Origin: Clostridia bacterium
GTDB taxonomy: Bacteria; Bacillota; Clostridia; DSM-8532
Length of the DNA: 35,457 bases
Direction of reading: 5' to 3'
NCBI GenBank assembly: GCA_020047785.1
Contig: JAIFNI010000252.1
Location: forward strand, 1 to 35,457
Numbering within the stretch: the stretch's first letter is position 1; each line of letters begins with the position of its first letter. Position numbers and translations under genes: made by a program. Shown here one piece after another: positions 2,748 through 32,682 of the stretch. The notes under the pieces are model-generated. The model saw nothing but the letters and a program-made list of their open reading frames with translations, had not been told where the DNA came from and did not search any database.

Positions 2748-2899
2748 GGCGGGTTTCAGGTCGTTTCAGTCCGGATCCAGGTTGGATTCAGTTTGGAATC
2801 AGGTCGGAATCAGTTCGGTTTCAGGTCGTTTCGGTCCGGATTCAGGATGGATTCAGGTCGGAATCAGTCCGGATTCAGATCGGTCTTAGGTCTGATTCA
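2748..2899. repeat. 11-bp tandem repeat array, about 14 copies
   Basis: Fourteen consecutive units of 11 bp (two of them 10 bp) with consensus GGTCGGATTCA fill the gap from the lacI stop to just before the deacetylase operator. Examples are GTCCGGATTCA (2834 and 2867), GGTCGGAATCA (2802 and 2856) and GGTTGGATTCA (2780). The last unit contains the lacI stop codon (TCA at 2897-2899 read on the minus strand). Units diverge by 1-4 bases. The period is close to one DNA turn, so each unit presents the same helical face. No protein reading is supported because 11 is not a multiple of 3. Confidence 0.9.
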
Positions 2900-3979
2900 T
2901 GCTTGACCAACAGGTTTCACCGCGCCAAGATAGTTGTCCTTCCCATAGGTGTTGTACCTTGTGTACAGATGGAAATCGATGAACATTTTCTCATGGGGTG
3001 GCTTTTTTCTATCGAGCAGATAGTCGGCCATGCATTTCAGCGCGTGATAGCCCTGCAGATACGGATTCTGGCAGATCGCCGCACTGATGGTCCCCTCCTG
3101 CAGAAGACGGTTCACATCCTCGGACATTTCGTGGCCTACAAGCACAAGTCCCCTGCGGCCGCTGTCCTTTACGGCCATCGCGGTTTCCTGAAGAAAACCA
3201 TCGACACTGTACACGCTTTGCATGCCGCCATCGACCGCCAGCTTCCCCAATGTGACATTGTAGGCATCTTCACTGTACATCTCATACGTCGCAACATCGA
3301 GCTCGATGTCGGGATATGCCTGGCACAGGACTTCCTGAAACCCCGTCAGCCTCAGTCGGCATTCGGGAGACAATGCGCCGGATTTTGCATGCATGGCTGT
3401 GATTGCCATGCATTTTCCGCGCCCTGCCGAAAACTTTCCGACAAGTTCCCCCGCAAGTCGCCCAATCAGCAAATTGTCCGGACCGACATAGAACTGTCGC
3501 CCGAAAGCTTCCTCATCATCATTGAGCATGCCCAGTGGAATGCCATCACCGATGATACCCCTTATTTTACCAGCGACAGGACCGAGTCCCTCGGGGACGA
3601 GGAGGAAGCCGTCCGTCTTCCGTCCGACAGCCTCCTTCACATGCGACAGCACCAGATTTCCGTCCATCCTGTTCAGGCAGACGCAATTGACGGAAACCCC
3701 GCAGAAGGAGAGTTCGCGTCCGGCACATTCGATTCCGGCCCGCATCTGATGCCAGAAAGGCGCGTTGTAAGGCATGAGGACGGTAATGTTCTTCCGGCTC
3801 TTCAGCGAAAGGGAGCGGGCGTGCCTGTTGGGCAGGTATTTCATTTCCTCGATTTTTTCAAGGACCCGCTGCCGGGTGTCCGCATTGATGTCGCTCTTGC
3901 CATGCATCGCACGCTCCACCGTACCGATGGATACGCCCAACGCCTTTGCGACATCCTTCAAGGTAATCCTTTCCTGCAT
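2897..3979 (-). CDS. LacI/GalR-family transcriptional regulator
   Basis: 360 residues from MQERITLKDVAKALGVS. The N-terminal HTH occupies about residues 4-25 (DVAKALGVSIGTVERAMHG), followed by the hinge region YLPNRHARSLS near 50-60 and a periplasmic-binding-protein-like effector domain from about residue 60. The ATG at 3979 is preferred over 4003 because AGAGG lies about 10 bases upstream of it and the HTH starts properly there. It is divergent to the acyltransferase-like gene, with a perfect palindrome between them, and codirectional with the deacetylase-amidohydrolase-RraA-dehydrogenase genes, which carry a matching palindrome. This indicates autoregulation and local control, probably released by a sugar or sugar derivative. 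Confidence 0.93.
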   Translation of the reverse strand: MQERITLKDVAKALGVSIGTVERAMHGKSDINADTRQRVLEKIEEMKYLPNRHARSLSLKSRKNITVLMPYNAPFWHQMRAGIECAGRELSFCGVSVNCVCLNRMDGNLVLSHVKEAVGRKTDGFLLVPEGLGPVAGKIRGIIGDGIPLGMLNDDEEAFGRQFYVGPDNLLIGRLAGELVGKFSAGRGKCMAITAMHAKSGALSPECRLRLTGFQEVLCQAYPDIELDVATYEMYSEDAYNVTLGKLAVDGGMQSVYSVDGFLQETAMAVKDSGRRGLVLVGHEMSEDVNRLLQEGTISAAICQNPYLQGYHALKCMADYLLDRKKPPHEKMFIDFHLYTRYNTYGKDNYLGAVKPVGQA

Positions 3980-4096
3980 GCTGAACCCGCCTCTCTCAGG
4001 CATCGGATAGATATTGCCTGCTCTTTTTCAGAAAAAAAGGCACATCAAGCCATTCGTTTCTGAAATTCATAGAGCAGGTTGTTTTTCCAAGCCCGT

Positions 4097-20490: not shown

Positions 20491-21729
20491 ATGAATCTGC
20501 AGGAAAAGCACCGTCTCCAGGAACTGGCCCGTCGTTACTCGGAACTTGCGTCAAATGACGCGAACCAAGAAAGAAAACAGCGCGCCCTGCAGATCAACGA
20601 TCGCCAGGCGGTTCGTCCCATCGTCTGGATCGACGAAATTCCCTGGCACGAGATGAATACCGACGATGAACTCACGCTGCAGTGCGAAGATGATTTCGCG
20701 CGCGGCATGGAGCGGTTTTTTCTGACATCCCTCTACCGTTGGCGGCACATTCAGGCAGACATGGTTCTGGAGCCTTTCTACCGAATAGGGAAGTCCTGCA
20801 CCAACTCGGGCATCGGGGTGGAGGTTCATGAACAGGTGCTGTCGAATGACAGCAGGAATCATATCGTTTCACACCATTATCAGGATCAGCTTGCAACCGA
20901 TGCCGATCTTGATCGGCTCCGCCTGCCCGTCATTCGCGCGGACAGGGAACAGGATGCACGAAACATGGAGATGGCGCAGGATGCGCTGCAGGAGATTCTG
21001 CCGGTGAAACTGCACGGCTGGAATTTCGGTTTCGCTCCATGGGACACAATCTCCATGCTGCGCGGTGTGGAACCTGCTCTCATCGATCTGGTCGAACGGC
21101 CGGAATTCATACACCGAACCATGGAGAAATTTGCAGCCATCGGCCTTGCCTCCATGGAGCAGCTTGAACAGGAAGGTCTGCTCGATCAGGACATCTCCAG
21201 TCTCCATTGCACGCCCCCGTACGTATCCGACCTTCCGGCTTCCGATTGGAAAGGTGCAAACATTCAACTGAAGGACACCTGGTTCCGTGGAACGGCGCAG
21301 ATGTTCTCCACCGTGTCCCCAGCCATGCACGAAGAATTCGAACTTCAGTACATGCGACCGCTGATGGCAAAATGTGGACTTGTGTATTACGGATGCTGCG
21401 AGCCACTCGACAACAAAATCGACGTGCTTCGTTCCATCCCGAATCTGCGCAAGATCGGCGTCAGTCCCTGGGCAAATCCATATCGCTGCGCGGAACAGAT
21501 CGGGCGCGATTATGTCTTTTCCTGCAAGCCAAATCCCGCGCTTGTGGCGGATGTCGCCGATCCGACCGTCATCAGGAAAGAAATCACGAACATCCTCACC
21601 GCTTGCCGGGAACACGGCTGTGCCGTCGAATTCGTACTCAAGGACATCAGCACGGTCTCCTACCGCCCTCAGAACCTCATCACATGGAGCCTGGTCGTGC
21701 AGGAATGCATCGATGCATGCCACCGATAG
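20491..21729 (+). CDS. Uroporphyrinogen decarboxylase-like (UroD superfamily) protein
   Basis: 412 residues; AGGAGG lies about 9 bases before the ATG. The length and C-terminal half (YYGCCEPLDNKIDVLRSIPNLRKIGVSPWAN near 305-335, then YVFSCKPNPA near 345) match a UroD-fold family common in catabolic loci of Clostridia and other gut or environmental bacteria. It is not the heme enzyme HemE: the N-terminal HemE signatures are missing and the context has no tetrapyrrole genes. Some UroD-fold proteins are corrinoid-dependent methyltransferases, but no corrinoid protein gene is nearby. A strong terminator follows, so it forms its own unit ahead of the sulfatase operon. Function unknown. Confidence 0.8.
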   Translation: MNLQEKHRLQELARRYSELASNDANQERKQRALQINDRQAVRPIVWIDEIPWHEMNTDDELTLQCEDDFARGMERFFLTSLYRWRHIQADMVLEPFYRIGKSCTNSGIGVEVHEQVLSNDSRNHIVSHHYQDQLATDADLDRLRLPVIRADREQDARNMEMAQDALQEILPVKLHGWNFGFAPWDTISMLRGVEPALIDLVERPEFIHRTMEKFAAIGLASMEQLEQEGLLDQDISSLHCTPPYVSDLPASDWKGANIQLKDTWFRGTAQMFSTVSPAMHEEFELQYMRPLMAKCGLVYYGCCEPLDNKIDVLRSIPNLRKIGVSPWANPYRCAEQIGRDYVFSCKPNPALVADVADPTVIRKEITNILTACREHGCAVEFVLKDISTVSYRPQNLITWSLVVQECIDACHR

Positions 21730-21760: not shown

Positions 21761-21848
21761 CAGGCCGGACCATTCTACAAACCAGGCCGGATCAACCGAC
21801 AAACAAAGGCGGACCTACCAACAAACCAAGCCGGATCAACCGACAAAC
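21761..21848. repeat. 22-bp tandem repeat, four copies
   Basis: Four contiguous 22-bp units lie just after the UroD-like stop: 21761-21782, 21783-21804, 21805-21826 and 21827-21848. Units 2 and 4 share GGATCAACCGACAAAC. All units end in ACAAAC. The period is twice the 11-bp period of the array at 2748. The fourth unit forms the left arm of the terminator. Confidence 0.85.
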
Positions 21849-21870
21849 CAAGTCGGTTGATCCGGCTTTT
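21830..21870 (+). terminator. Strong intrinsic terminator after the UroD-like gene
   Basis: GCCGGATCAACCGAC and GTCGGTTGATCCGGC form a perfect 15-bp stem with a 7-base loop (AAACCAA), directly followed by TTTT; two A-T pairs extend the stem. Repeat unit 2 carries the same left arm, so an alternative longer-loop hairpin is possible. Confidence 0.85.
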
Positions 21871-22133: not shown

Positions 22134-22931
22134 ATGATCAGTCTGGGTGTCAACACGGTACTCTTCAAGGCGTTCCCATTTTTAGAGGCGGCCAGGGCCA
22201 TCAAGCTGGCCGGATATGACGGACTCGAAATCTCGGCCATCCAAGGCATGTGCGAGCATCTGGACCCGGTGAACTACAAGGCGCAGAAGCAGGGTATCCT
22301 GGATGCGCTGGAAGAAACCGGCCTGAAGATGCTGGCCGCCGAAGTGGCGTCCCTGGATGCGGAGCGGCTCAAATGGGCATGCGAAGCGGCTGCCGAAATC
22401 GGTATTCCCATCCTGAATGTGGGCCCCGGTGGAAAGGCCGGCGATGAGGCAACCTTGCTGCAAAGCATCGAAACGCTCATGGCGCTGTCCGACATGGCCG
22501 CATCTCATGGCGTCACCCTCTGCTGCAAGGCGCATGTGGGTGCCGCCATTCACAATACCGAAACCACCCTTCGGGCCATGGCGGCGATTCCCTCGGCCGG
22601 ATTCGGCATCGACATGGACCCCAGCCACATCTTCCGCGCCGGCGAAAACCCGGCTGTAGCACTTCCAGCTGTTCTCTCCCGCACCCGGCACATTCATATC
22701 AGGGACTGTCGGGGACCCGGCCCTTCCCCTGGTGAACCGGCGTTTCAGGCTTGCGGACGCGGAGACATCGATCTGTTCGGCTACTGCAAAGCCATGACGG
22801 AAGGGTCCTATGACGGCCCGGTCTGCCTGGAAGTCATCGGGCCGGAACAAAACATGATGCAGGCCATCACCATAGCCGCTGAGAGCTACGGCTACATGAA
22901 TGCGTGTCTGAAGAAGCTGGGCGCAAGATGA
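22134..22931 (+). CDS. Sugar phosphate isomerase/epimerase-like TIM-barrel protein
   Basis: 265 residues from MISLGVNTVLFKAFPF; the ATG at 22134 has AGGGAGG about 8 bases upstream, so the longer ORF from 21996 is not used. The AP-endonuclease-2/xylose-isomerase-like barrel is indicated by GYDGLEIS near residue 30, GIDMDPSHIFRAGE near 155-170 with Asp and His metal ligands, HIHIRDC near 185, and the late Glu in VCLEVIGPE near 240. Relatives interconvert keto- and aldo-sugars or 3-keto sugars, often next to Gfo/Idh/MocA oxidoreductases as here. It is the first gene of the plus-strand operon. Confidence 0.87.
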   Translation: MISLGVNTVLFKAFPFLEAARAIKLAGYDGLEISAIQGMCEHLDPVNYKAQKQGILDALEETGLKMLAAEVASLDAERLKWACEAAAEIGIPILNVGPGGKAGDEATLLQSIETLMALSDMAASHGVTLCCKAHVGAAIHNTETTLRAMAAIPSAGFGIDMDPSHIFRAGENPAVALPAVLSRTRHIHIRDCRGPGPSPGEPAFQACGRGDIDLFGYCKAMTEGSYDGPVCLEVIGPEQNMMQAITIAAESYGYMNACLKKLGAR

Positions 22932-23011
22932 CAAGAACCACATGACAAGCACCACATGAAAATCACCGCATGACAAGCACCGCAGGACAAGCACCACATG
23001 AAAATCAGTGA
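22928..23011. repeat. 14-bp tandem repeat, six copies, overlapping a stop codon
   Basis: Six contiguous 14-bp units (ATGACAAGAACCAC, ATGACAAGCACCAC, ATGAAAATCACCGC, ATGACAAGCACCGC, AGGACAAGCACCAC, ATGAAAATCAGTGA) begin inside the stop codon of the TIM-barrel gene and fill most of the gap to the sulfatase-like gene. Most units carry ATGA. No protein reading is supported. Confidence 0.9.
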
Positions 23012-23042
23012 AAATCAATCTGCAAGGGGAAAGAGGAGTACC

Positions 23043-24548
23043 ATGAAAAAGCCGAACCTTCTGTTCTTCGGTCTGGAAAGCCTGCGCAGCGACCATATGA
23101 GCCTGTACGGGTACAACCGCCTGACAACCCCCCACATGGACAAGTACCTGGCGGATGGCGGCATCGTGTTCGACCATTTCTTCAGCCCGAGCATTCCCAC
23201 CACACCCGGCTATTCCTCCATGCTCACAGGAATGGATTGCTTCAGCACCAACGTGGTTGCGCTGCGCCATGAAGGCGGAATCGCCCCAGGGGTGAAGACG
23301 CTGGCGGAACTGCTGCGGGAACAGGGATACGACACCACGTGTGTCGGATTCACAGGAAATGCAGCCTCTCAGGGATTCGACAAGTATCTCGAATTCGAAG
23401 GATGGGGCAGCTGGGAAAAAGGCCGCTCCCCCAAGGCGGAAAACCTCAACGCCGTCACCATTCCGGAGTTGGAACGACTGGCCGCCGGAGAAAAACCGTT
23501 CTTCCTGTTCCTCCGCCACATGGATCCTCATTCTCCTTACCTTGCGCCAGAACCTTTCGCCAGCATGTTCCATCAGGGCGACGCGTTCGATTCGGAAAAC
23601 AAATCCCTGGACCCGGTCTACAGCTTCAAGCCCTTCTGCGACTACTTCTATGCCTGGTTCCCGCCGGGATGCACGGACAAGGAATACATCGTCGCCCAGT
23701 ACGATGCGGAGATCGCGTACATGGACGCATGCGTGCAGATTCTGCTGCAGAAGCTGGATGATCTGGGCATCACGGAAGAGACGGTCGTGGTCTTCACCAG
23801 CGACCATGGCGAAACCCTCCACGACCACGAATGCTGGTATGACCATCACGGTCTTTATGAATGCACGCTCACCGTACCGTTCGCCATCCGGTTCAAGGGG
23901 AAGACGGAAGGAAAGCGCATTGCGGAAATCTGCCAGCACAAGGATCTTGTACCGACCCTGCTGGATGTGATGGGCCTGGAGACGGATGTCTCCTTTGATG
24001 GCCGCAACCTGATGAAACTGGTTCGCGGCGAAGAAATCCCCACTGAAAACGAGTTCTACATCACAGAATGCACCTGGCAGCGCAAGCATGGCTGGCGCAC
24101 ACCGGAATGGAAACTCTTTGTCGCGCTGGAACCGGATTTCCACTACAAGCCGGAAACCGAGCTCTACAATCTGCTGGAGGATCCGGAGGAACTGCACAAT
24201 CTGGCGGAGGAACGCCCGGATGTGGTGGCAACGTTGAAGACCAGAATGCTCGAACACGTCGCAAAGCGTGAAGCCGCCTGCGGACGTGACAACCCGATGT
24301 ATACCAACCTGAACTGGCATGGGTTGGGATGCGGTCCCTTCACGTCCTCCGATCAAGCGTACAATTCAATGCACATCGGGGACCCGGAAACGGCCCGCCG
24401 TCTGCAGGCCGAGGGTTTGAAGCGCAATGTGAAGGAAGAACAGCCGGATGGAGCGGCCTCCGAACAGCTGAATGAATTGGCATCCGTTCAGCCGGATGAA
24501 TCAGCCTCCGAACAGCCGGAAAAAGAATCCCCCGAACAGGAGGCGTGA
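23043..24548 (+). CDS. Sulfatase-fold (alkaline phosphatase superfamily) hydrolase with Thr at the active-site position
   Basis: 501 residues; AGAGGAG lies about 5 bases before ATG 23043, and the ORF-track start at 22998 is in the repeat. The fold is shown by LLFFGLESLRSDHMSLYG (residues 6-23), RHMDPHSPY near 160, and TSDHGETLHDHECWYDHHGLYE near 255-278 with Asp/His metal ligands. The formylglycine motif C/S-x-P-x-R is replaced by T53-T-P-G-Y57, so neither the modifiable Cys/Ser nor the Arg is present. Thr nucleophiles occur in phosphodiesterase, phosphonate and phosphoethanolamine-transfer members of the superfamily, so a phosphoester or related substrate is possible. No signal peptide is seen. 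The C-terminus is an 8-residue Glu/Pro/Ser repeat tail. Confidence 0.85.
   Translation: MKKPNLLFFGLESLRSDHMSLYGYNRLTTPHMDKYLADGGIVFDHFFSPSIPTTPGYSSMLTGMDCFSTNVVALRHEGGIAPGVKTLAELLREQGYDTTCVGFTGNAASQGFDKYLEFEGWGSWEKGRSPKAENLNAVTIPELERLAAGEKPFFLFLRHMDPHSPYLAPEPFASMFHQGDAFDSENKSLDPVYSFKPFCDYFYAWFPPGCTDKEYIVAQYDAEIAYMDACVQILLQKLDDLGITEETVVVFTSDHGETLHDHECWYDHHGLYECTLTVPFAIRFKGKTEGKRIAEICQHKDLVPTLLDVMGLETDVSFDGRNLMKLVRGEEIPTENEFYITECTWQRKHGWRTPEWKLFVALEPDFHYKPETELYNLLEDPEELHNLAEERPDVVATLKTRMLEHVAKREAACGRDNPMYTNLNWHGLGCGPFTSSDQAYNSMHIGDPETARRLQAEGLKRNVKEEQPDGAASEQLNELASVQPDESASEQPEKESPEQEA
24438..24545. repeat. 24-bp coding repeat, 4.5 copies, at the end of the sulfatase-like gene
   Basis: Units of 24 bp begin with GAACAG or GTTCAG and encode 8-residue repeats EQPDGAAS, EQLNELAS, VQPDESAS, EQPEKESP and the partial EQEA. 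The last half-unit, GAACAGGAGGCG, also supplies the AGGAGG ribosome binding site of the following oxidoreductase gene. Confidence 0.9.
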
Positions 24549-24553
24549 GCCGG

Positions 24554-25564
24554 ATGCTGAGAGTATGCGTCATTGGCATGGGTCCCATCGGGAACACCCA
24601 CGCGGCGGTCTATCAGGCACTTCCCGGCGTTGAACTGGTTGCCGTGTGCGATCGGCGGACAGAACGCGCCCAGGCGGGCGGAGCCAAGTACGGCGTTCCG
24701 TGTTTTGAAAATGCGCAGCAAATGCTGGATGAAATGAAGCCCGATCTCGTCAGTGTCGCCACAGGCGGATTCGAATATTCGAGCGATCATTACGAACCCA
24801 CCCTTCAGGCACTCCATGCGGGATGCCATGTCCTGTGCGAAAAACCGATCTGCAACGATCTGGAGAAGGCGCAGGAAATGGTGGACACAGCCAGACGGCT
24901 CAATCGCTGTCTGGCTGTGGACCTGAACCACCGCTTCACCCCCGCCGCCCGTGCCGCCAAGGCATGGCAGGATCAGGGGCTCATCGGGGAGCTGCTCTTT
25001 CTGAACATGAACCTGTGGATTGGCCGGTTCGAGCAGTTCGAAACGGAGTTCTACCATCTGAAGGCCCTGAATCCACACAGTGTGGATATTCTCCGGTATT
25101 ATGGCGGTGAAATCGAAGAAGTGCAGTGTTTCGCGATGAAGGCCAGCGGACGGTCCATCTATTCCACCCAGTCCACGAATCTCCGGTTTGCCTGTGGAGC
25201 GGTCGGACACCTGACGAGTTCCTACGACATCAAGCGGGGACACCCCATGGAGCGCATCGACGTGGCCGGCGTCAACGGACGGATGGTCGTAGAGGACATG
25301 TGGCGGGAAGCCACGCTGTATCCGGCTGATTCATGGATCAAGCAGCAGTACACCAATCCAGTATTTGGTGGATTCGGACAGTTTTATGACACCTTCGCCG
25401 ATCGGATCGCCTCATTTGCCCGCGAGGTTGCGGCCGGGGTTCGGCCGGAGGACATTGATGGAAGCGGACAGGCCGGGCTGGAGGCCAGCCGGGTGATCCA
25501 TGCCGCCATCGAATCCATCCGGCGAGGCGGTCAGCCGGTGAAGGTAGCGGAAATCACAAAATGA
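24554..25564 (+). CDS. Gfo/Idh/MocA-family sugar oxidoreductase (first copy)
   Basis: 336 residues from MLRVCVIGMGPIGNTHA; ATG 24554 has AGGAGG 10 bases upstream, while the GTG at 24545 is too close to it. The N-terminal Rossmann fold binds NAD(P): GMGPIG near residue 8 and VAVCDRR near 31. The family Lys lies in CEKPICND near 95. The C-terminal domain has HLKALNPHSVDILRYYGG near 172, which keeps the HxxD catalytic pair. Such enzymes oxidise or reduce sugar ring or inositol hydroxyls. Overall it resembles the second oxidoreductase at 26506. Its start is nearly coupled to the upstream sulfatase-like gene (5-base gap). Confidence 0.92.
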   Translation: MLRVCVIGMGPIGNTHAAVYQALPGVELVAVCDRRTERAQAGGAKYGVPCFENAQQMLDEMKPDLVSVATGGFEYSSDHYEPTLQALHAGCHVLCEKPICNDLEKAQEMVDTARRLNRCLAVDLNHRFTPAARAAKAWQDQGLIGELLFLNMNLWIGRFEQFETEFYHLKALNPHSVDILRYYGGEIEEVQCFAMKASGRSIYSTQSTNLRFACGAVGHLTSSYDIKRGHPMERIDVAGVNGRMVVEDMWREATLYPADSWIKQQYTNPVFGGFGQFYDTFADRIASFAREVAAGVRPEDIDGSGQAGLEASRVIHAAIESIRRGGQPVKVAEITK

Positions 25565-25609
25565 GCTGCCCGTGAACAATCACCTCACCTTTCCCATAAG
25601 GAGCCACCC

Positions 25610-26461
25610 GTGAACTATAACCGCATTCTCACCAACGAATACTTCGAGCCCGGCATGCCGCCCGTGTTCGTCACAAGTGACAAACATCATGGCAATGTCA
25701 GTCTGCACAATCATGAATTCTTCGAGCTGGTGTTCATCGAGCGAGGCGTCGCACTGCACAGCCATGAGGGTAATACACAGATCCTGACGACCGGAGACGT
25801 ATTCATCATCCTGCCCGGTGAAGTACACTCCTATATCAGCACCAACAACACGTCGCTCTACAATTGCCTGTTCATTATTGATTCCTTGAAGGGACACGAA
25901 CAGGATATCAGGGAAATGCAGGGTTTGTCCTGGCTGCTGAAGGGGAGGACGGATTTCCAGCAAGTCCACGCCGGGCTTGCCGAAACACAGGAGCTGCTGC
26001 TGTATCTGGAAAAAATGATCTGGGAGCGGCTAAATCGGGGTGTCGGCTGGGAGCTGAAGATCAAGTCTCTTCTGTACGGGCTTCTGGTGGCCTATGCCCG
26101 TCTGTACGGAAACGCCAGGTTGTCTGCAGAAGGGGCAAAATCCAATTTCAAGCATGTCTTCGAGGCCGTTGCCTACATTGAATCGAACTATCAGCATGAG
26201 GTACTGTTGGAGGATGTGGCCCGAGCAACTGGATTGTCAGCGGGATATCTGTCAAAGCAGTTCAAGAGCCTGTTGGGATCCACCCCGGCGGAATATGCGA
26301 GGAGTTTCCGAATGGCCAAAGCAGCGGAACTGCTGAGAAATGAAGGCACTTCCGTGGCCGCGGTCTCCGAAGCGATGGGCTTTTCCGACCTGTCTCTTTT
26401 CTCGCGTCAGTTCAGACAAGTGACTGGCGTATCGCCGACAGGATTCAGAAAAACAATTTGA
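25610..26461 (+). CDS. AraC-family transcriptional regulator with cupin-type sensor domain
   Basis: 283 residues from a GTG start with AAGGAG about 7 bases upstream. The N-terminal cupin-like domain (about 15-110) contains LHNHEFFELVFIERG and a GDVFIILPGEVHSY element. The C-terminal double HTH (about 180-283) has LEDVARATGLSAGYLSKQFK and VAAVSEAMGFSDLSLFSRQFRQVTGVSPTGFRK, the standard AraC signature. It lies in the middle of the sulfatase operon between the two oxidoreductases and probably activates the operon in response to a sugar. The 21-bp-spaced TTTTGCAT repeats at 21930 are candidate binding sites. Confidence 0.93.
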   Translation: MNYNRILTNEYFEPGMPPVFVTSDKHHGNVSLHNHEFFELVFIERGVALHSHEGNTQILTTGDVFIILPGEVHSYISTNNTSLYNCLFIIDSLKGHEQDIREMQGLSWLLKGRTDFQQVHAGLAETQELLLYLEKMIWERLNRGVGWELKIKSLLYGLLVAYARLYGNARLSAEGAKSNFKHVFEAVAYIESNYQHEVLLEDVARATGLSAGYLSKQFKSLLGSTPAEYARSFRMAKAAELLRNEGTSVAAVSEAMGFSDLSLFSRQFRQVTGVSPTGFRKTI

Positions 26462-26505
26462 ACCGCACCATGAAAATCGAGAGAATCATAAAGGGGGACA
26501 CTGTA

Positions 26506-27609
26506 ATGTCATTGAAAATCGGATTGGTCGGAATGGGCGGAATCGGAAATACCCATGCGGATGTCTATAAACAGGACGAACTGGCCAATTTGGCTGCGGT
26601 CTGTGATGTCAAGCGGGACCGGGCGGATGCGGCGGCTGAAAAATACGGCGTGCCGGCCTTCTATTCCCTGAAGGAAATGCTGGAAGCAATGCCCGACCTG
26701 GATATCGTGGACATCACAACTTCCGGCTATGAAAACGGCAGCTGGCACTATGTACCGGCCATGGAAGCCATCGCGGCCGGGAAAAACGTGCTGGTGGAAA
26801 AACCCATCTCGAACGATGTGCGGGAAGCGCGCGAAATGGTCCGGTTTGCTGCAGAAAAAGGCGTGTATCTGGGCTGCAACCTCAATCATTTTTTCACAAA
26901 ACCGGCTGAACGCGCCGATCAGCTGATAGACGAGGGAAAAATCGGAGAACCGGTTTATATTGTCCACAAGATGGGCTTCAATGGCGGAGAGTCCGGCTAC
27001 GGCGGCCGCGGATCCGCCCGCTGGCAGCGTCCTTATTCACATCTGAAGGCGTTCCTCGCGCATCCGTTTTCCGTGATGCGTCACTTCGGCGGCGACATCA
27101 CCCATATACAGGCTTACCTCAGCAAACCCGGCGTGCGCAAGACAGCCGACGATCTGATGTACTCCATCAACAGCGTCCACGTGCGTTTTGAAAACGGAAG
27201 CACCGGATATCTGCTCTCCCAGCGCGGGGATGCGATGTTCGGCCTCGGTGGCTGGTGGAGCTTCGAAATGGCCGGCACGAAAGGCACCTTCGTCATCGAG
27301 AACTGCGTGGAGAAGCTTCAGTTCTGGGATGCCTCCCAGCCGAAGAGCGCCATGGCTTCGCCGGAACCCAACGAAATCCTCGACACGGGCATCACCGATT
27401 TCGGAGCCACCTTCCCGGCCAGGCTCCATGCCTATCTGGAAGATGTGACGAACAAGGTGCCCCTTGAATCGCTTCGCGCCTCCGGCCGTGATGCGCTTGC
27501 CACACTGGAATACACCTTTGCCGCCATCAAATCCTTTGAGGAGGGTGGCACAGTAGTCCGTCCGGAACCGCTGCCCAACCTGCACGGCGACATCTTCAAA
27601 CCTATCTGA
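26506..27609 (+). CDS. Gfo/Idh/MocA-family oxidoreductase (second copy)
   Basis: 367 residues from MSLKIGLVGMGGIGNTHA; AAGGGGG lies about 8 bases before ATG 26506. The Rossmann motif GMGGIG and the family Lys in VEKPISND near 98 are present. Its N-terminal half is clearly related to the first copy (IGNTHA, AAVCD, KYGVPAF), so the two look like an old duplication or recruited paralogues. In the catalytic segment, HLKAFLAHPFSVMRHFGG keeps the His, but the Asp found in the first copy's HxxD is replaced by Ser. That may mean a different reaction or substrate. The canonical sulfatase gene follows 56 bases downstream. Confidence 0.92.
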   Translation: MSLKIGLVGMGGIGNTHADVYKQDELANLAAVCDVKRDRADAAAEKYGVPAFYSLKEMLEAMPDLDIVDITTSGYENGSWHYVPAMEAIAAGKNVLVEKPISNDVREAREMVRFAAEKGVYLGCNLNHFFTKPAERADQLIDEGKIGEPVYIVHKMGFNGGESGYGGRGSARWQRPYSHLKAFLAHPFSVMRHFGGDITHIQAYLSKPGVRKTADDLMYSINSVHVRFENGSTGYLLSQRGDAMFGLGGWWSFEMAGTKGTFVIENCVEKLQFWDASQPKSAMASPEPNEILDTGITDFGATFPARLHAYLEDVTNKVPLESLRASGRDALATLEYTFAAIKSFEEGGTVVRPEPLPNLHGDIFKPI

Positions 27610-27665
27610 TTCATCCGTTTCAAACCTGCAACAGATCCCTTCGACACGCACCTCGGGAGGCCTGC

Positions 27666-29042
27666 ATGAAGCCGAACATCCTGCTCATCGTCGCCGATCA
27701 GCACCGCCATGACGCACTGGGTTGTGCCGGCAGGTTCCCGATCCTTACCCCGCATATCGACAGACTGGCGCGTGAAGGCGTGTTTTTCGAAAACGCCTTC
27801 ACGCCCTGCCCGGTGTGCGCACCTGCCCGCCAGGCGCTTTTGGGTGGACGGGCACCGGAAAGTTTCGGCGCGCTATGGAATCCCGATTTCATCCCAATGC
27901 CTACCCTGTCGCCCGACCCGGGTTTCCACACAGCCGCGCTGGCACGGTCGGGTTATTCCTGTGCACTGGTTGGAAAATGGAATTCATCCATCAGCTTCTC
28001 TCCGTACGACTTTGGCTTCTCCACGCATATCGGCTATGAGGTGTACAACGCCGGCATTGCCGTGAAGTATCCGACGCTGTCATACAGGAACGGGTGGTTC
28101 GGGGAACCGACCCCCATCGCCCTCGAGGACAGCAAGACCCACTGGGCCGCCTCGCAGGCGTGCAGCCTGATGGTGGAATATGCGAAACAGGAAACACCTT
28201 GGTATATCCGTGTGGATTTCACCGATCCCCATCTGCCCTGTCGCCCTTCCGAACCTTTTGCCAGCCTGTATGACCCGGACACTGTCGAACCATGGGACAG
28301 CATGGGCGATCCGTTGGAAGGAAAACCGTACATCCAGCGCCAGCAGATACGCAGCTGGGGTTTGGAAGGCCGGACCTGGGGTGAGTGGAAGCATACGCTG
28401 GCCATGTACCAGGGCATGGTCAGCCAGATCGATGACGCGGTCGGGGTCCTCCTTGCGCAGCTGGACAGCCTGAATCTGACGGAAGACACCATAGTGGTGT
28501 ACACGGCGGACCATGGCGACCTTTGCGGCGGGCACGGCATGCTGGACAAGCATTACGTCCTGTACGACGATGTGACCCGGGTTCCCTTGCTCATTCGGTA
28601 CCCGCGTCTGGCACATGCGGGACATCGGGCGAAGGAGTTCGCCAGCAACTGTCTGGACCTCGGCGCAACCCTCGGCGAACTATGCGGGGTGAAGGTATCG
28701 GCCGGGCATGGAATCCCTCTGACACCCATGTTGACCGGAGAAAGCAAGCCCGGACGGGACTTTGCCGTATCTGCCGCAAGCGGCCAGCAGTTCGGGCTGT
28801 ACTCCCAGCGAAGCATCCGGACGAAAGACTGGCTGTATGTCTGGAACATGACGGATATGGATGAACTGTACGATTCTGCAGCCGATCCCGGGCAGATAAG
28901 GAACCTGATTCATCAGCCGGATTTGATGGAGGTTGTGGAAGAATTGCGGAAAAAGCTGCATGCCGAGCTGCGACGGCGGGAAGACCCGTTTGTTTGTTCG
29001 GGCTGGCTGGACGGACAATTGCTTGAAGGAAAGAAGGACTGA
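27666..29042 (+). CDS. Sulfatase with canonical Cys-type formylglycine motif
   Basis: 458 residues; GGGAGG lies about 6 bases before the ATG. The catalytic motif C51-A-P-A-R55 is present as VCAPARQALLGG, so an anaerobic sulfatase-maturing enzyme or equivalent is needed to make formylglycine; none is in the window. Metal ligands are in VADQHRHDALG near residue 10 and TADHGDLCGGHGMLDKH near 283, and the GKW element is near 103. It removes sulfate esters, probably from a sugar. No signal peptide is visible, which suggests cytoplasmic desulfation after uptake by the ABC transporter encoded next. Confidence 0.93.
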   Translation: MKPNILLIVADQHRHDALGCAGRFPILTPHIDRLAREGVFFENAFTPCPVCAPARQALLGGRAPESFGALWNPDFIPMPTLSPDPGFHTAALARSGYSCALVGKWNSSISFSPYDFGFSTHIGYEVYNAGIAVKYPTLSYRNGWFGEPTPIALEDSKTHWAASQACSLMVEYAKQETPWYIRVDFTDPHLPCRPSEPFASLYDPDTVEPWDSMGDPLEGKPYIQRQQIRSWGLEGRTWGEWKHTLAMYQGMVSQIDDAVGVLLAQLDSLNLTEDTIVVYTADHGDLCGGHGMLDKHYVLYDDVTRVPLLIRYPRLAHAGHRAKEFASNCLDLGATLGELCGVKVSAGHGIPLTPMLTGESKPGRDFAVSAASGQQFGLYSQRSIRTKDWLYVWNMTDMDELYDSAADPGQIRNLIHQPDLMEVVEELRKKLHAELRRREDPFVCSGWLDGQLLEGKKD

Positions 29043-29170
29043 CCATGAGAAAAGTGGCTGGATATAAGAAAACAACAACAGACAGAACGCGGAAAGAAAG
29101 TTGAAGAATCAGAAAAAAAACTGAAAATACCGTAAAAATCATCAGAGAAAACAGAGAAAGAGGAGACAAC

Positions 29171-30412
29171 ATGAAAAGAATTCTGACCATTTTTCTTATC
29201 CTGATCCTTGCCTTTCTTCCGGTTGGATGCGCCCAGAAATCTCCGGCACAGGACATTACGCTGAAGTTCGTGCGCATCGGCAATGACGCTGCGGAGGCCG
29301 AATACTGGAAAGGTTTGATTACCCGTTTCGAGGCGAAGACACCCGGCATCAGGATCCAGTATGATGACGCCGCGATCGGCGAACCGATGGAAACCAAACT
29401 GAATTCGATGTTCAGCGCCGGAATGGGACCTGACCTCATCGGCCATGGCATCATGTCCGTGGCAGCACGCGCGGTGGCTAAGAATTATCAGCCGATCACG
29501 AAATACTTCAGTACCTGGGAAGGCAAGGATGACATCATGCCCAGTGTACTGGCAAACGGCACCTACAACAAGGAAGTGTATGGATTGGCCTACTCCACCA
29601 CGCCTTTTGTATTCGCTTACAGGAAGGATTTGTTTGCCGCCGCTGGTCTGGACCCGGAGAGCCCGCCGAAAACATGGGCGGAACTGAAAGAATATGCGGA
29701 AAAGCTGACCGTCAAGGAAGGTGACCGCATCGTCACCTCCGGATTCTCCTTCCCGAAATCCGCCGGCAATTTCGTGGAATTCGACTGCTTTGTTTTCGGC
29801 AATGGCGGCCGCTACTATGACGCGGACGGCAAACCGACGATTGACACACCGGAAAAGGCGGAAGCTTTCCGATTCCTGTCCTCTTTTCTCAACGAGGTCA
29901 GCATCCCTTTCAGCAACACGGAGGTGAATCCCTTCGTCAACGGCAGCGCGGCCATGACCCTCATCAACAACGTGGCGCTGACCGGCATGCTGAAGAATGA
30001 GGAATACAAGGACAAAATCGGCATCGCGCTGCCGCCGTCCAACGAGGGCAAGGCACAGGAAACCTTCGCCGGCTGCAACATGCTCTTTGTCGGCGGTGAC
30101 TGCAAGAATCCCGATGCAGCCTTCCAGTTCATCGCGTTCGCCCTGACCAATGAGGAAGTCATGAAACGGGCCACCGATCTCAACATCCCCGTGACCCGCC
30201 AGTCCCAGGTCGAAGCCTTCACGGCCCTGAATCCCATGAATGCGGTCCGTGCCGCCTGTGTGGCCAACGGCACCGGCATGCCCCGCACCACGTGGGCTGC
30301 CTCCTTCCAGAAAATCCGCAACACGATGGTGCAGGAAGTCCTGTATGGGAAAACTACGCCGGAGGATGCGTTGAAGAATGCGCAGCAGGCGCTGCTTGAT
30401 GAAATTGAGTAG
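29171..30412 (+). CDS. ABC sugar transporter substrate-binding lipoprotein (CUT1)
   Basis: 413 residues; AGAGGAG lies about 5 bases before the ATG. The signal peptide ends in the lipobox LPVGC with Cys20. The rest is a type 1 extracellular solute-binding fold: EAEYWKGLITRFEAKTPGIRI near 37-58, GMGPDLIGHG near 82, VYGLAYSTTPFVFAYRKDLF near 137-156, and AAMTLINNVAL near 260. It captures an oligosaccharide or sugar derivative outside the cell and delivers it to the two permeases. The 128-base leader before it is purine-rich without a clear terminator. Confidence 0.93.
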   Translation: MKRILTIFLILILAFLPVGCAQKSPAQDITLKFVRIGNDAAEAEYWKGLITRFEAKTPGIRIQYDDAAIGEPMETKLNSMFSAGMGPDLIGHGIMSVAARAVAKNYQPITKYFSTWEGKDDIMPSVLANGTYNKEVYGLAYSTTPFVFAYRKDLFAAAGLDPESPPKTWAELKEYAEKLTVKEGDRIVTSGFSFPKSAGNFVEFDCFVFGNGGRYYDADGKPTIDTPEKAEAFRFLSSFLNEVSIPFSNTEVNPFVNGSAAMTLINNVALTGMLKNEEYKDKIGIALPPSNEGKAQETFAGCNMLFVGGDCKNPDAAFQFIAFALTNEEVMKRATDLNIPVTRQSQVEAFTALNPMNAVRAACVANGTGMPRTTWAASFQKIRNTMVQEVLYGKTTPEDALKNAQQALLDEIE

Positions 30413-30486
30413 TTGGCCGTCATGACGGCTCAACCGACCGGCTTGCAGGCTCCGTCTTGCGCGCATACATTGGGGAAGCAGGTTTC

Positions 30487-31419
30487 ATGGGCACCTTTCG
30501 ACACGGAATACAGACAAACATCGATGTAAAGAAACGGATTCCGTTTCTGACCGGAGACGCGGTATCGGCCTACCTGCTGATACTGCCTTTCTTTGTGTTT
30601 TTCTTCCTGTTTGTTCTCTCTCCGCTTCTGCGCAACTTCCTGAACAGCTTCACGAATGACAGCCTTGGCGTGAAGGAATTCATCGGCTTCCGCAATTATG
30701 AAAAACTTCTGCGGGACCGCAGCTTTCTGCGTTCCGTCCTGAACACATTCACCTTTGCCCTGTTTTCGATTGTCCCGCTGATGGTGCTTGGCTTTGCGGC
30801 CGCTCTGAGCGTCAATCGGCCGAAGAAGGCCATGTATGCCGCGCGTGCCGTTCTCATGTACCCGTACGTAGCTTCCATGGTCTCCGTGTCGATGATTTGG
30901 CTGTACCTGTTCGACCCGGGCTCCGGTCTTTTCAACAAGGTCCTTTGGATGGCCGGGTTTTCAGGCAGCGACTGGCTTTTCGATGAAAAGCTTGCCCTTC
31001 CCTGCCTGATTGTCGTGAACGTCTGGAAAATGATCGGCTATGTCATGATTCTGTATCTGGCCGCCCTGCAGGGGGTTCCCCAAAGTCAGTACGATGCGGC
31101 GGTCGTCGACGGCGCCGGATTCCTTGGCGCCACCTGGCATGTCACACTGCCGGCCATCCGTCCGGTCAGTTTCTTTCTGCTGGCCACGCTGTCCATCGAG
31201 TGCTTCAAGACATTCGAGCAGGTCCGGATCATGACGAACGGCGGCCCGCTGGACGCGACGACCACCATCACGCACCAGATCTACATGCGCGCCTTTTCCG
31301 AGTTCAAGATGGGCTATGCCTCCGCAATGTCCGTCGTTCTGTTTCTCATGGTCTTCGTGGTCACCCTGCTGAATCTGAAATTCGGCGGGCAGCTGGAAGA
31401 GGACAGGGGGAACGGATGA
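30487..31419 (+). CDS. ABC sugar permease, UgpA/MalF type
   Basis: 310 residues from MGTFRHGIQTN; AGCAGG precedes ATG 30487, and the TTG at 30457 is less likely. About six helices are visible, from AYLLILPFFVFFFLFVLSPLL to VVLFLMVFVVTLLNL. The ATPase-docking EAA loop is present as YDAAVVDGAGFLGATWHVTLPAIRP near residues 200-225. It pairs with the following permease, whose start overlaps its stop codon (ATGA). Confidence 0.93.
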   Translation: MGTFRHGIQTNIDVKKRIPFLTGDAVSAYLLILPFFVFFFLFVLSPLLRNFLNSFTNDSLGVKEFIGFRNYEKLLRDRSFLRSVLNTFTFALFSIVPLMVLGFAAALSVNRPKKAMYAARAVLMYPYVASMVSVSMIWLYLFDPGSGLFNKVLWMAGFSGSDWLFDEKLALPCLIVVNVWKMIGYVMILYLAALQGVPQSQYDAAVVDGAGFLGATWHVTLPAIRPVSFFLLATLSIECFKTFEQVRIMTNGGPLDATTTITHQIYMRAFSEFKMGYASAMSVVLFLMVFVVTLLNLKFGGQLEEDRGNG

Positions 31420-32384
31420 TTAGCCGAATGAAGAACTGCATGCCAGGTTGGCTGGCGAGAGTAAGGTCGGACCGGCCCATCCGGCAAATGAATGGACGGA
31501 CGACGGAACACAGGAGAGGACGAATGACAGGCCGTGTCGCGGGCTTCTTCCTCCTGATGTTTTTTCTTCTGGCCGCCGGAATCCCCTTCCTCATCATGCT
31601 GTCCGTGTCTCTCCAGAGCATGGAACAGATTTATTCCCCATCCCTGGCACTGCTTCCGAACCCCGTCCGGTTTTCCAACTACCCGGATGCCATGTCGAAC
31701 GGAAACTGGACCCGATACCTGTTCAACAGCGCCTATGTCGCGGGGATGTCCACGGTACTCAGTCTGTTCATCAATGCCATGACCGGGTATGCTTTCGCGC
31801 GGATCGCGTTCCCGTTGAAGCGCCCGCTGTTCGTGCTGATTCTGGCGGGCATGATGATTCCGCCGCAGGTGACGCTGGTACCGCTTTTCATCCAGATGAA
31901 GCAATTCCCACTCGCAGGCGGCAACAACCTTTTCGGTGCGGGCGGCACGGGACTGGTCGACACATACGCCGGTCTGATTCTTCCCTACATCGCAGGCTCC
32001 TTTGGGGTTTTCATGTGCAGGCAATTCTACCTCATGTTCCCGAAGGAACTCGATGAAGCGGCGAAGATGGACGGGTGCGGCAGATTCCGAACTTTCCTGT
32101 CCATCTACCTGCCCCTGTCCGCCCCGATTCTTGGCGCGCTGGCTGTGCTGAAGTTCACGGCTGCCTGGAACGAGTACACCTGGCCGCTTGTGATGACCAA
32201 TGCAGGCGCGGACACCCTGACCACCGTGCAGCTTGCCCTGACTCGTTTCCGCAATGAAGGGGAGATCTTCTGGAACCAGCTGATGGCGGCGACAATGGTA
32301 TCCAGCCTGGCGATTCTTGTGGTGTTCCTGTCCATGCAGAAGTATTTCGTGGCGGGTATCTTGTCAGGAAGTGTGAAGGAATAG
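31416..32384 (+). CDS. ABC sugar permease, UgpE/MalG type
   Basis: 322 residues from ATG 31416, which overlaps the previous stop and has AGGGGG 5 bases upstream. ATG 31524 (MTGRVAGFF) also has a good site, GGAGAGG; it would remove an unusual basic 36-residue leader and may be the real or a second start. Six helices are seen, and the EAA loop reads KELDEAAKMDGCGRFRTFLSIYLPLSAP near 211-235. No ATPase gene follows; CUT1 systems in Bacillota often share a general MsmX/MsmK-type ATPase encoded elsewhere. Confidence 0.93.
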   Translation: MISRMKNCMPGWLARVRSDRPIRQMNGRTTEHRRGRMTGRVAGFFLLMFFLLAAGIPFLIMLSVSLQSMEQIYSPSLALLPNPVRFSNYPDAMSNGNWTRYLFNSAYVAGMSTVLSLFINAMTGYAFARIAFPLKRPLFVLILAGMMIPPQVTLVPLFIQMKQFPLAGGNNLFGAGGTGLVDTYAGLILPYIAGSFGVFMCRQFYLMFPKELDEAAKMDGCGRFRTFLSIYLPLSAPILGALAVLKFTAAWNEYTWPLVMTNAGADTLTTVQLALTRFRNEGEIFWNQLMAATMVSSLAILVVFLSMQKYFVAGILSGSVKE

Positions 32385-32539: not shown

Positions 32540-32682
32540 ATTTCGTACGTTTTTTCGAATAAGCACATCATTTTTCACACATTTATCCGAGTTTATGCTT
32601 TCATTTTCACACAATATTTCGTGTTCTCGCATTCGCAAGCACACTCACACACTATTTCGTGTTCCCGCATTCGCAAGTACAC
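32540..32682. repeat. 38-bp tandem repeat (two close copies plus degenerate ones)
   Basis: Units 32607-32644 and 32645-32682 are contiguous and differ at 3 of 38 positions; both contain ATTTCGTGTTC and GCATTCGCAAG. Degenerate relatives begin near 32540 (ATTTCGTACG...AAGCACA) and 32575 (TCACACATTTAT...). Units are AT-rich against the surrounding GC. The 447-base gap 32385-32831 otherwise holds only the hairpin at 32397 and the elements near 32752. Confidence 0.8.

Follow-up and report, generated by a model that had tools for sequence, protein, structure and literature searches.

The operon and its surroundings

The window analysed here is the whole 35,457-nucleotide stretch; the operon of interest lies on contig C269 of its host genome, a 3.92-Mb MAG that is 75% complete. 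ORF calls combined with Pfam on the window place nine genes on the single (+) strand between positions 22134 and 32384, in the order AP_endonuc_2 TIM barrel, Sulfatase, Gfo/Idh/MocA, AraC, Gfo/Idh/MocA, Sulfatase, SBP_bac_1 and two BPD_transp_1. The gene order and coordinates given by an earlier sequence-only reading are borne out by the window ORFs, and all its family labels agree with Pfam; what does not stand is "sulfatase" as the function of the first sulfatase-fold protein, which has a TTPGY site. The features are as follows.

21828-21868, no strand assigned: inverted repeat with a 17-bp stem, followed by TTTT on the + strand; it likely terminates the gene before it and bounds the operon on the upstream side
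22134-22931, + strand: TIM, xylose-isomerase-like TIM barrel (AP_endonuc_2), candidate lyase, epimerase or isomerase
23043-24548, + strand: SulA, enzyme of the PF00884 fold whose nucleophile position holds Thr (T53)
24545-25564, + strand: OxA, Gfo/Idh/MocA oxidoreductase; 4-base overlap with the SulA stop
25610-26461, + strand: AraC-family regulator with a cupin sensor domain
26506-27609, + strand: OxB, second Gfo/Idh/MocA oxidoreductase
27666-29042, + strand: SulB, canonical FGly-type S1 sulfatase by motif (C-A-P-A-R), without signal peptide
29171-30412, + strand: SBP, CUT1-type extracellular solute-binding lipoprotein
30457-31419, + strand: PermA, UgpA/MalF-type permease; start at 30457 or 30487
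31416-32384, + strand: PermB, UgpE/MalG-type permease; overlaps the PermA stop

The nine genes likely form a single transcription unit, since they are separated by about 130 bp at most or overlap (OxA with SulA, PermB with PermA), most of them are preceded by Shine-Dalgarno-like sequences, and a hairpin lies upstream. The starts of OxB and PermB are better placed at 26506 and 31416, respectively. A promoter scan gave fewer matches than in shuffled sequence.

Short tandem arrays of differing unit lengths, mostly intergenic, are scattered over the window (2752-2892, 21764-21856, 22928-23007, 24438-24520 and 32607-32682). The ORF at 20491-21729, which has no Pfam or NCBIfam match, is conserved: L084 (51%) and L098 (43%) have relatives of it close to the SulA core. 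On the minus strand, adjoining genes for an RraA-like aldolase, an amidohydrolase and a PIG-L deacetylase occupy positions 277-2629, beside a gene for a LacI/periplasmic-binding-type regulator (2897-4003).

SulA, a threonine-type member of PF00884

The alignment of SulA with three solved enzymes places T53 at the FGly position and Y57 at that of the stabilising Arg, the Cys/Ser-x-Pro-x-Arg site of S1 sulfatases being replaced by Thr-Thr-Pro-Gly-Tyr (IPTTPGY). The S1 DD/DQ pair reads E-S (D-S in orthologues) and GK reads G-F, and the joint alignment shows neither a second acidic metal ligand nor the GK Lys. A Thr is found at the nucleophile position in 81 of 81 family members, as well as in relatives at 42-50% identity wherever the motif is readable. 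The residues that remain are E12, T53, H163, D254, H255 and H268, position 12 being Glu only in the window copy among the 81 and Asp in orthologues. S1 formylglycine sulfatases (SulfAtlas, PMC5066984) have the fold, the Asp-His metal pair and the PH motif in common with SulA, whereas their FGly Cys/Ser, stabilising Arg, GK Lys and second metal acid all have no counterpart in it. Because Thr replaces the nucleophile and these three other groups are missing, SulA cannot, as judged from the aligned residues, be an ordinary FGly sulfatase. The authors of SulfAtlas mentioned that Thr-bearing PF00884 members exist, which are not to be assumed functional sulfatases without experiment (PMC5066984). 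The window genome contains, besides SulA, 11 PF00884 matches with C-x-P-x-R, SulB included.

A different kinship is suggested by the Thr-type phosphotransferases. The active-site residues of MCR-1, EptA, LtaS and YejM have been listed (PMC7576196), and the acid, the Thr, the Asp-His pair and the further His of LtaS, EptA/MCR and YejM are equivalently placed in SulA, as far as sequence positions go. The phosphoethanolamine-transferase and LtaS NCBIfam models match SulA far below their cut-offs (42.2 bits against 500 for the Thr-type phosphotransferase model) and do not match SulB. Unlike LtaS, EptA and YejM, SulA has no transmembrane domain or N-terminal extension, appears cytosolic, and carries an S1-sulfatase-like C-terminal domain (SGSH_C). 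Its AlphaFold2 model (pLDDT 84.5, pTM 0.85) has the fold of S1 sulfatases and phosphonate monoester hydrolases, two groups that Foldseek does not separate (best matches 3ed4, 7lj2 and 4uph). From its residues, we infer that SulA is a phospho-ester hydrolase or transferase; cleavage of a sulfo-ester looks less likely.

SulA also has a low-complexity C-terminal tail, encoded by the tandem array at 24438-24520 and absent from the aligned orthologues. A second Thr-type PF00884 family, F7, has the motif IPTEVAHT (e.g. L087:13083-14471, L091:12990-14378); in operons of the Paenibacillus type it adjoins APS kinase and SulB.

SulB, its maturation and the import system

SulB displays the full S1 FGly set (CAPAR, ADQ, VGKW, DPH, ADHGD and LDKH), and C-x-P-x-R is found in all 19 SulB members with a readable motif; by motif, it is a complete canonical FGly sulfatase. 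In sequence it comes closest, at low similarity, to an exo-2S-iota-carrageenan sulfatase and to S1 enzymes from the gut. The N-termini of the two sulfatase-fold proteins (MKKPNLLFFGLESLRSD and MKPNILLIVADQHRHD) show no signal peptide by inspection, in agreement with what had been claimed for both SulA and SulB.

The sequence-only reading had proposed to look in the genome for a sulfatase-maturing radical SAM enzyme and for an MsmX-type ATPase, and both were found. An anSME-type maturase is encoded on contig C303 (TIGR03942, 388 bits against a cut-off of 349). No FGE was found in the 75%-complete MAG, and FGE-type maturation was rejected on this ground. The only above-cut-off anSME gene of the genome lies beside six sulfatase genes, all with C-x-P-x-R (G000:C303:15168-25569; cluster loci L004, L005, L007, L008, L011, L013, L016, L063 and L064), which form a separate sulfated-glycan locus.

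Among the 29 Pfam-scanned ORFs of the window there is neither a glycoside hydrolase nor an ABC ATPase, as had been stated before. A UgpC/MsmX-type ATPase gene lies at C289:214-1317 (484.5 bits against a cut-off of 432); it is solitary, with no relative of binding protein or permease on C289, and probably provides in trans the ATPase of the operon's importer, whose SBP carries the lipobox LPVGC. Import followed by cytosolic processing, as previously suggested, is supported by the SBP and permease genes, the solitary ATPase gene and the sulfatase-fold proteins without signal peptides.

Two halves of separate origin

The mirrored gene order of the window had been taken to suggest that a sulfatase-oxidoreductase unit was duplicated, both sulfatases being of the FGly type. 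SulA and SulB are, however, only 27% identical, and OxA and OxB 34%, against 52-78% (SulA, OxA, OxB) and 42-56% (SulB) to their orthologues. Tree distances between the window paralogues are 4.8 and 2.8, respectively, whereas their nearest orthologues lie 0.4-0.7 and 0.2-0.3 away. SulA, SulB and F7 each make up a clade of their own. Strict monophyly does not hold for OxA and OxB in the tree, but each window copy has only sequences of its own type as nearest neighbours. The mirror order is itself unstable, OxA being followed by SulB in L071, L073, L076 and L094. These identities and distances rule out duplication in situ and, together with the differing active-site residues, leave the duplicated-unit reading hardly tenable. 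According to these sequence comparisons, the operon halves have been put together from old, separate families.

A core module conserved across phyla

A genome scan retrieved at least 443 SulA relatives, and the 80 best loci were retained. By record title they come from Clostridia, Bacilli, Verrucomicrobia, Planctomycetota, Lentisphaerae, Armatimonadota, Chloroflexota, Spirochaetes, Poribacteria, Latescibacterota and others. Of these best 80 of at least 443 loci, 73 contain one or more Gfo/Idh/MocA genes, 64 contain TIM and 23 contain SulB. As read from these neighbourhoods, TIM, SulA and Gfo/Idh/MocA constitute a conserved core module of about ten phyla, which the sequence-only reading had overlooked, together with its ties elsewhere to sulfate activation and sulfotransfer. 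One MAG locus, L069, reproduces all nine genes in this order and adds a second TIM barrel. A plasmid search gave a single Paenibacillus megaplasmid, with an annotated cognate operon. In open-access literature on sulfatases paired with Gfo/Idh/MocA enzymes, on sulfatases of the Thr type and on clusters with a sulfotransferase, no description of the core was found, which is weak evidence; the pathway is highly conserved and, it appears, undescribed.

Roughly 20 of the best 80 of at least 443 loci contain ABC importers, and the type found next to the core (CUT1, Opp or ribose) varies with lineage. A role in uptake and catabolism is the consistent reading of such varied importers.

Sulfate activation and sulfotransfer near the core

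The Sulfotransfer_3 protein F5 is encoded in 21, and APS kinase in 16, of the best 80 of at least 443 loci; F5, APS kinase or SulB occurs in 45 of them. The F5 model (pLDDT 92.7) best matches CurM and the tyrosylprotein sulfotransferases (TPST). CurM sulfates a hydroxyl and thereby turns it into a leaving group. This curacin-type sulfotransferase is the best structural match of F5, yet at 13% identity, and F5, which is absent from the window, differs from it in that it stands alone or carries a fused CE15-like esterase domain. Such fusions are present in several Verrucomicrobiota. Those at L187:8252-10279, L197:7152-9119, L199:8047-10068 and L158:3-1850, with a CE15-like (GCE_fung) domain, have a metallophosphoesterase gene nearby and, in L199, additional HpcH/HpaI aldolase and 2-hydroxyacid dehydrogenase genes. 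In L144, cysN-cysD-cysC and F5 adjoin TIM-SulA-OxA-OxB-SulB; a Type I phosphodiesterase (PF01663) gene lies between F5 and the TIM-SulA operon there (L144:7070-8986, minus strand).

The association extends to whole genomes. Of 388 Verrucomicrobiota genomes, 20 have F5 and SulA together and the remainder have neither. The two genes are adjacent in eight of these 20; in at least seven, F5 lies mid-contig with no core gene nearby, as in G193, where both are on one contig, at 1.25 Mb and 4.01 Mb. At 75% identity the 20 SulA sequences separate into 10 groups and so do not represent a single recent clade, relatedness being not fully removed. Of 400 Chloroflexota genomes, 14 have SulA and two have F5, in both cases beside SulA. 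F5 thus implies SulA, whereas SulA can do without F5. The coupling, two-way in Verrucomicrobiota and one-way in Chloroflexota, makes F5 an optional partner outside the core.

These observations bring in another reading of SulA, in which it needs no FGly and transfers sulfuryl groups, as a hydrolase or a transferase, within a pathway linked to sulfation; it would process the sulfated intermediate by way of a Thr-sulfate enzyme. Lineages with F5 and PAPS genes would sulfate the compound themselves and the others would import it sulfated. The shared set of 20 genomes with at least seven clearly unlinked cases, its 10 sequence groups, the two Chloroflexota cases, the structural matches of F5 and the L144 arrangement all speak for it. 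Against it, a Thr-type sulfatase is not known, and experiment is demanded by the SulfAtlas authors (PMC5066984); F5 is missing from 12 of the 14 SulA-bearing Chloroflexota; and neither APS kinase nor Sulfotransfer_3 is detectable in the 75%-complete window genome. On balance we consider this reading rather unlikely. A PAPS requirement in the window organism itself was rejected on the last of these results.

Related loci with genes for a sulfotransferase and for PAPS synthesis, and the lack of a transporter in the stretch examined at several PVC-type loci, would also suit a biosynthetic cluster for a sulfated or phosphorylated small molecule, with the window transporter incidental. This looks very doubtful in view of the differing importer types beside the core in several phyla, the FGly sulfatase SulB in 23 of the best 80 of at least 443 loci, and the AraC control.

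The redox enzymes

The levoglucosan pathway, with LgdA, LgdB1, LgdB2 and LgdC, proceeds by oxidation, elimination, hydration and reduction (PMC7676230). Its layout (PMC7676230), with two Gfo/Idh/MocA enzymes, an ABC importer and a TIM-barrel enzyme called "sugar phosphate isomerase", recurs in the present operon, where the two Gfo/Idh/MocA genes and the TIM-barrel gene stand together. It differs in using two TIM barrels instead of one, and in having no AP-superfamily enzyme or sulfatase, while the window operon has both. A second TIM barrel, F6, is found in 16 of the best 80 of at least 443 related loci. The levoglucosan dehydrogenase model gives 65.7 bits for OxA and 62.2 for OxB, against a cut-off of 650. 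The redox-assisted cleavage proposed earlier is plausible by analogy to this pathway (PMC7676230), with OxA and OxB far below the curated cut-offs for characterised dehydrogenases. TIM has no close solved relative; its conserved motifs are KAHVG, DMDPSH, HIHIRD and LEVIG.

The same protein families serve myo-inositol catabolism, where IolG corresponds to OxA/OxB, and IolE and IolI to TIM. OxA, OxB and TIM might thus oxidise, isomerise or dehydrate, and reduce a ring polyol, leaving no glycosidic bond cut. This cyclitol pathway draws on the match of OxA to inositol 2-dehydrogenase (105.6 bits) and of TIM to IolE (33.4 bits) and IolI, but the scores are far under the equivalog cut-offs of 355 bits for IolG and 290 bits for IolE. 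Myo-inositol catabolism is not known to include an AP-superfamily enzyme. The core is followed by rhamnose genes in L085 and L136 and has a GH106 gene in its vicinity in L123; these three loci hint at a rhamnose-containing substrate and suggest glycosides, and a cyclitol pathway appears unlikely. OxA, TIM and OxB fit levoglucosan logic and inositol families equally, reaching curated cut-offs for neither.

Proposed pathway and its implications

The explanation we prefer, at close to even confidence, is an AraC-controlled operon through which an imported sulfated conjugate is broken down in the cytosol by redox-assisted steps, SulA acting on a phospho-type ester. The substrate is probably a sugar-like compound, sulfated. 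The AraC regulator would control the operon, and the CUT1 importer (SBP, PermA, PermB and the UgpC/MsmX-type ATPase in trans) would bring in the sugar-derived conjugate. Cytosolic SulB, matured by anSME, would take off the sulfate ester. OxA may then oxidise a ring hydroxyl, the TIM-barrel enzyme would pull the now acidic neighbouring proton in an elimination or epimerisation, and OxB would reduce what this step yields, in the manner of the levoglucosan pathway. SulA, via Thr53 and one metal (E/D12, D254, H255, H268), would cleave or transfer the phospho-type ester.

The partners that recur with the core handle sulfate, not phosphate, and this speaks against a role of SulA in phospho chemistry alone. 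Its neighbours, with their link to sulfate, and its active site, which is phospho-like, are opposing pointers, and the most interesting tension of this system. At its widest, the sulfate side would have SulA found an FGly-independent family acting on sulfated metabolites, in a core spanning many phyla where PAPS-derived sulfate is placed on a sugar or cyclitol for a time, to activate or mark it. This appears quite unlikely; if true, PAPS-derived sulfate would play the part that phosphate has in ordinary sugar metabolism. The strict coupling of SulA to the PAPS sulfotransferase F5 in some phyla makes such a sulfation-linked carbon pathway directly testable.

SulA relatives currently carry a "sulfatase" annotation (e.g. 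on NZ_CP045296 of Paenibacillus cellulositrophicus, with SulA at 841750-843168) despite being unable, by their residues, to act as FGly sulfatases. The family is unusually conserved, with 58-73% identity across about ten phyla, so that one biochemical result would re-annotate many genes.
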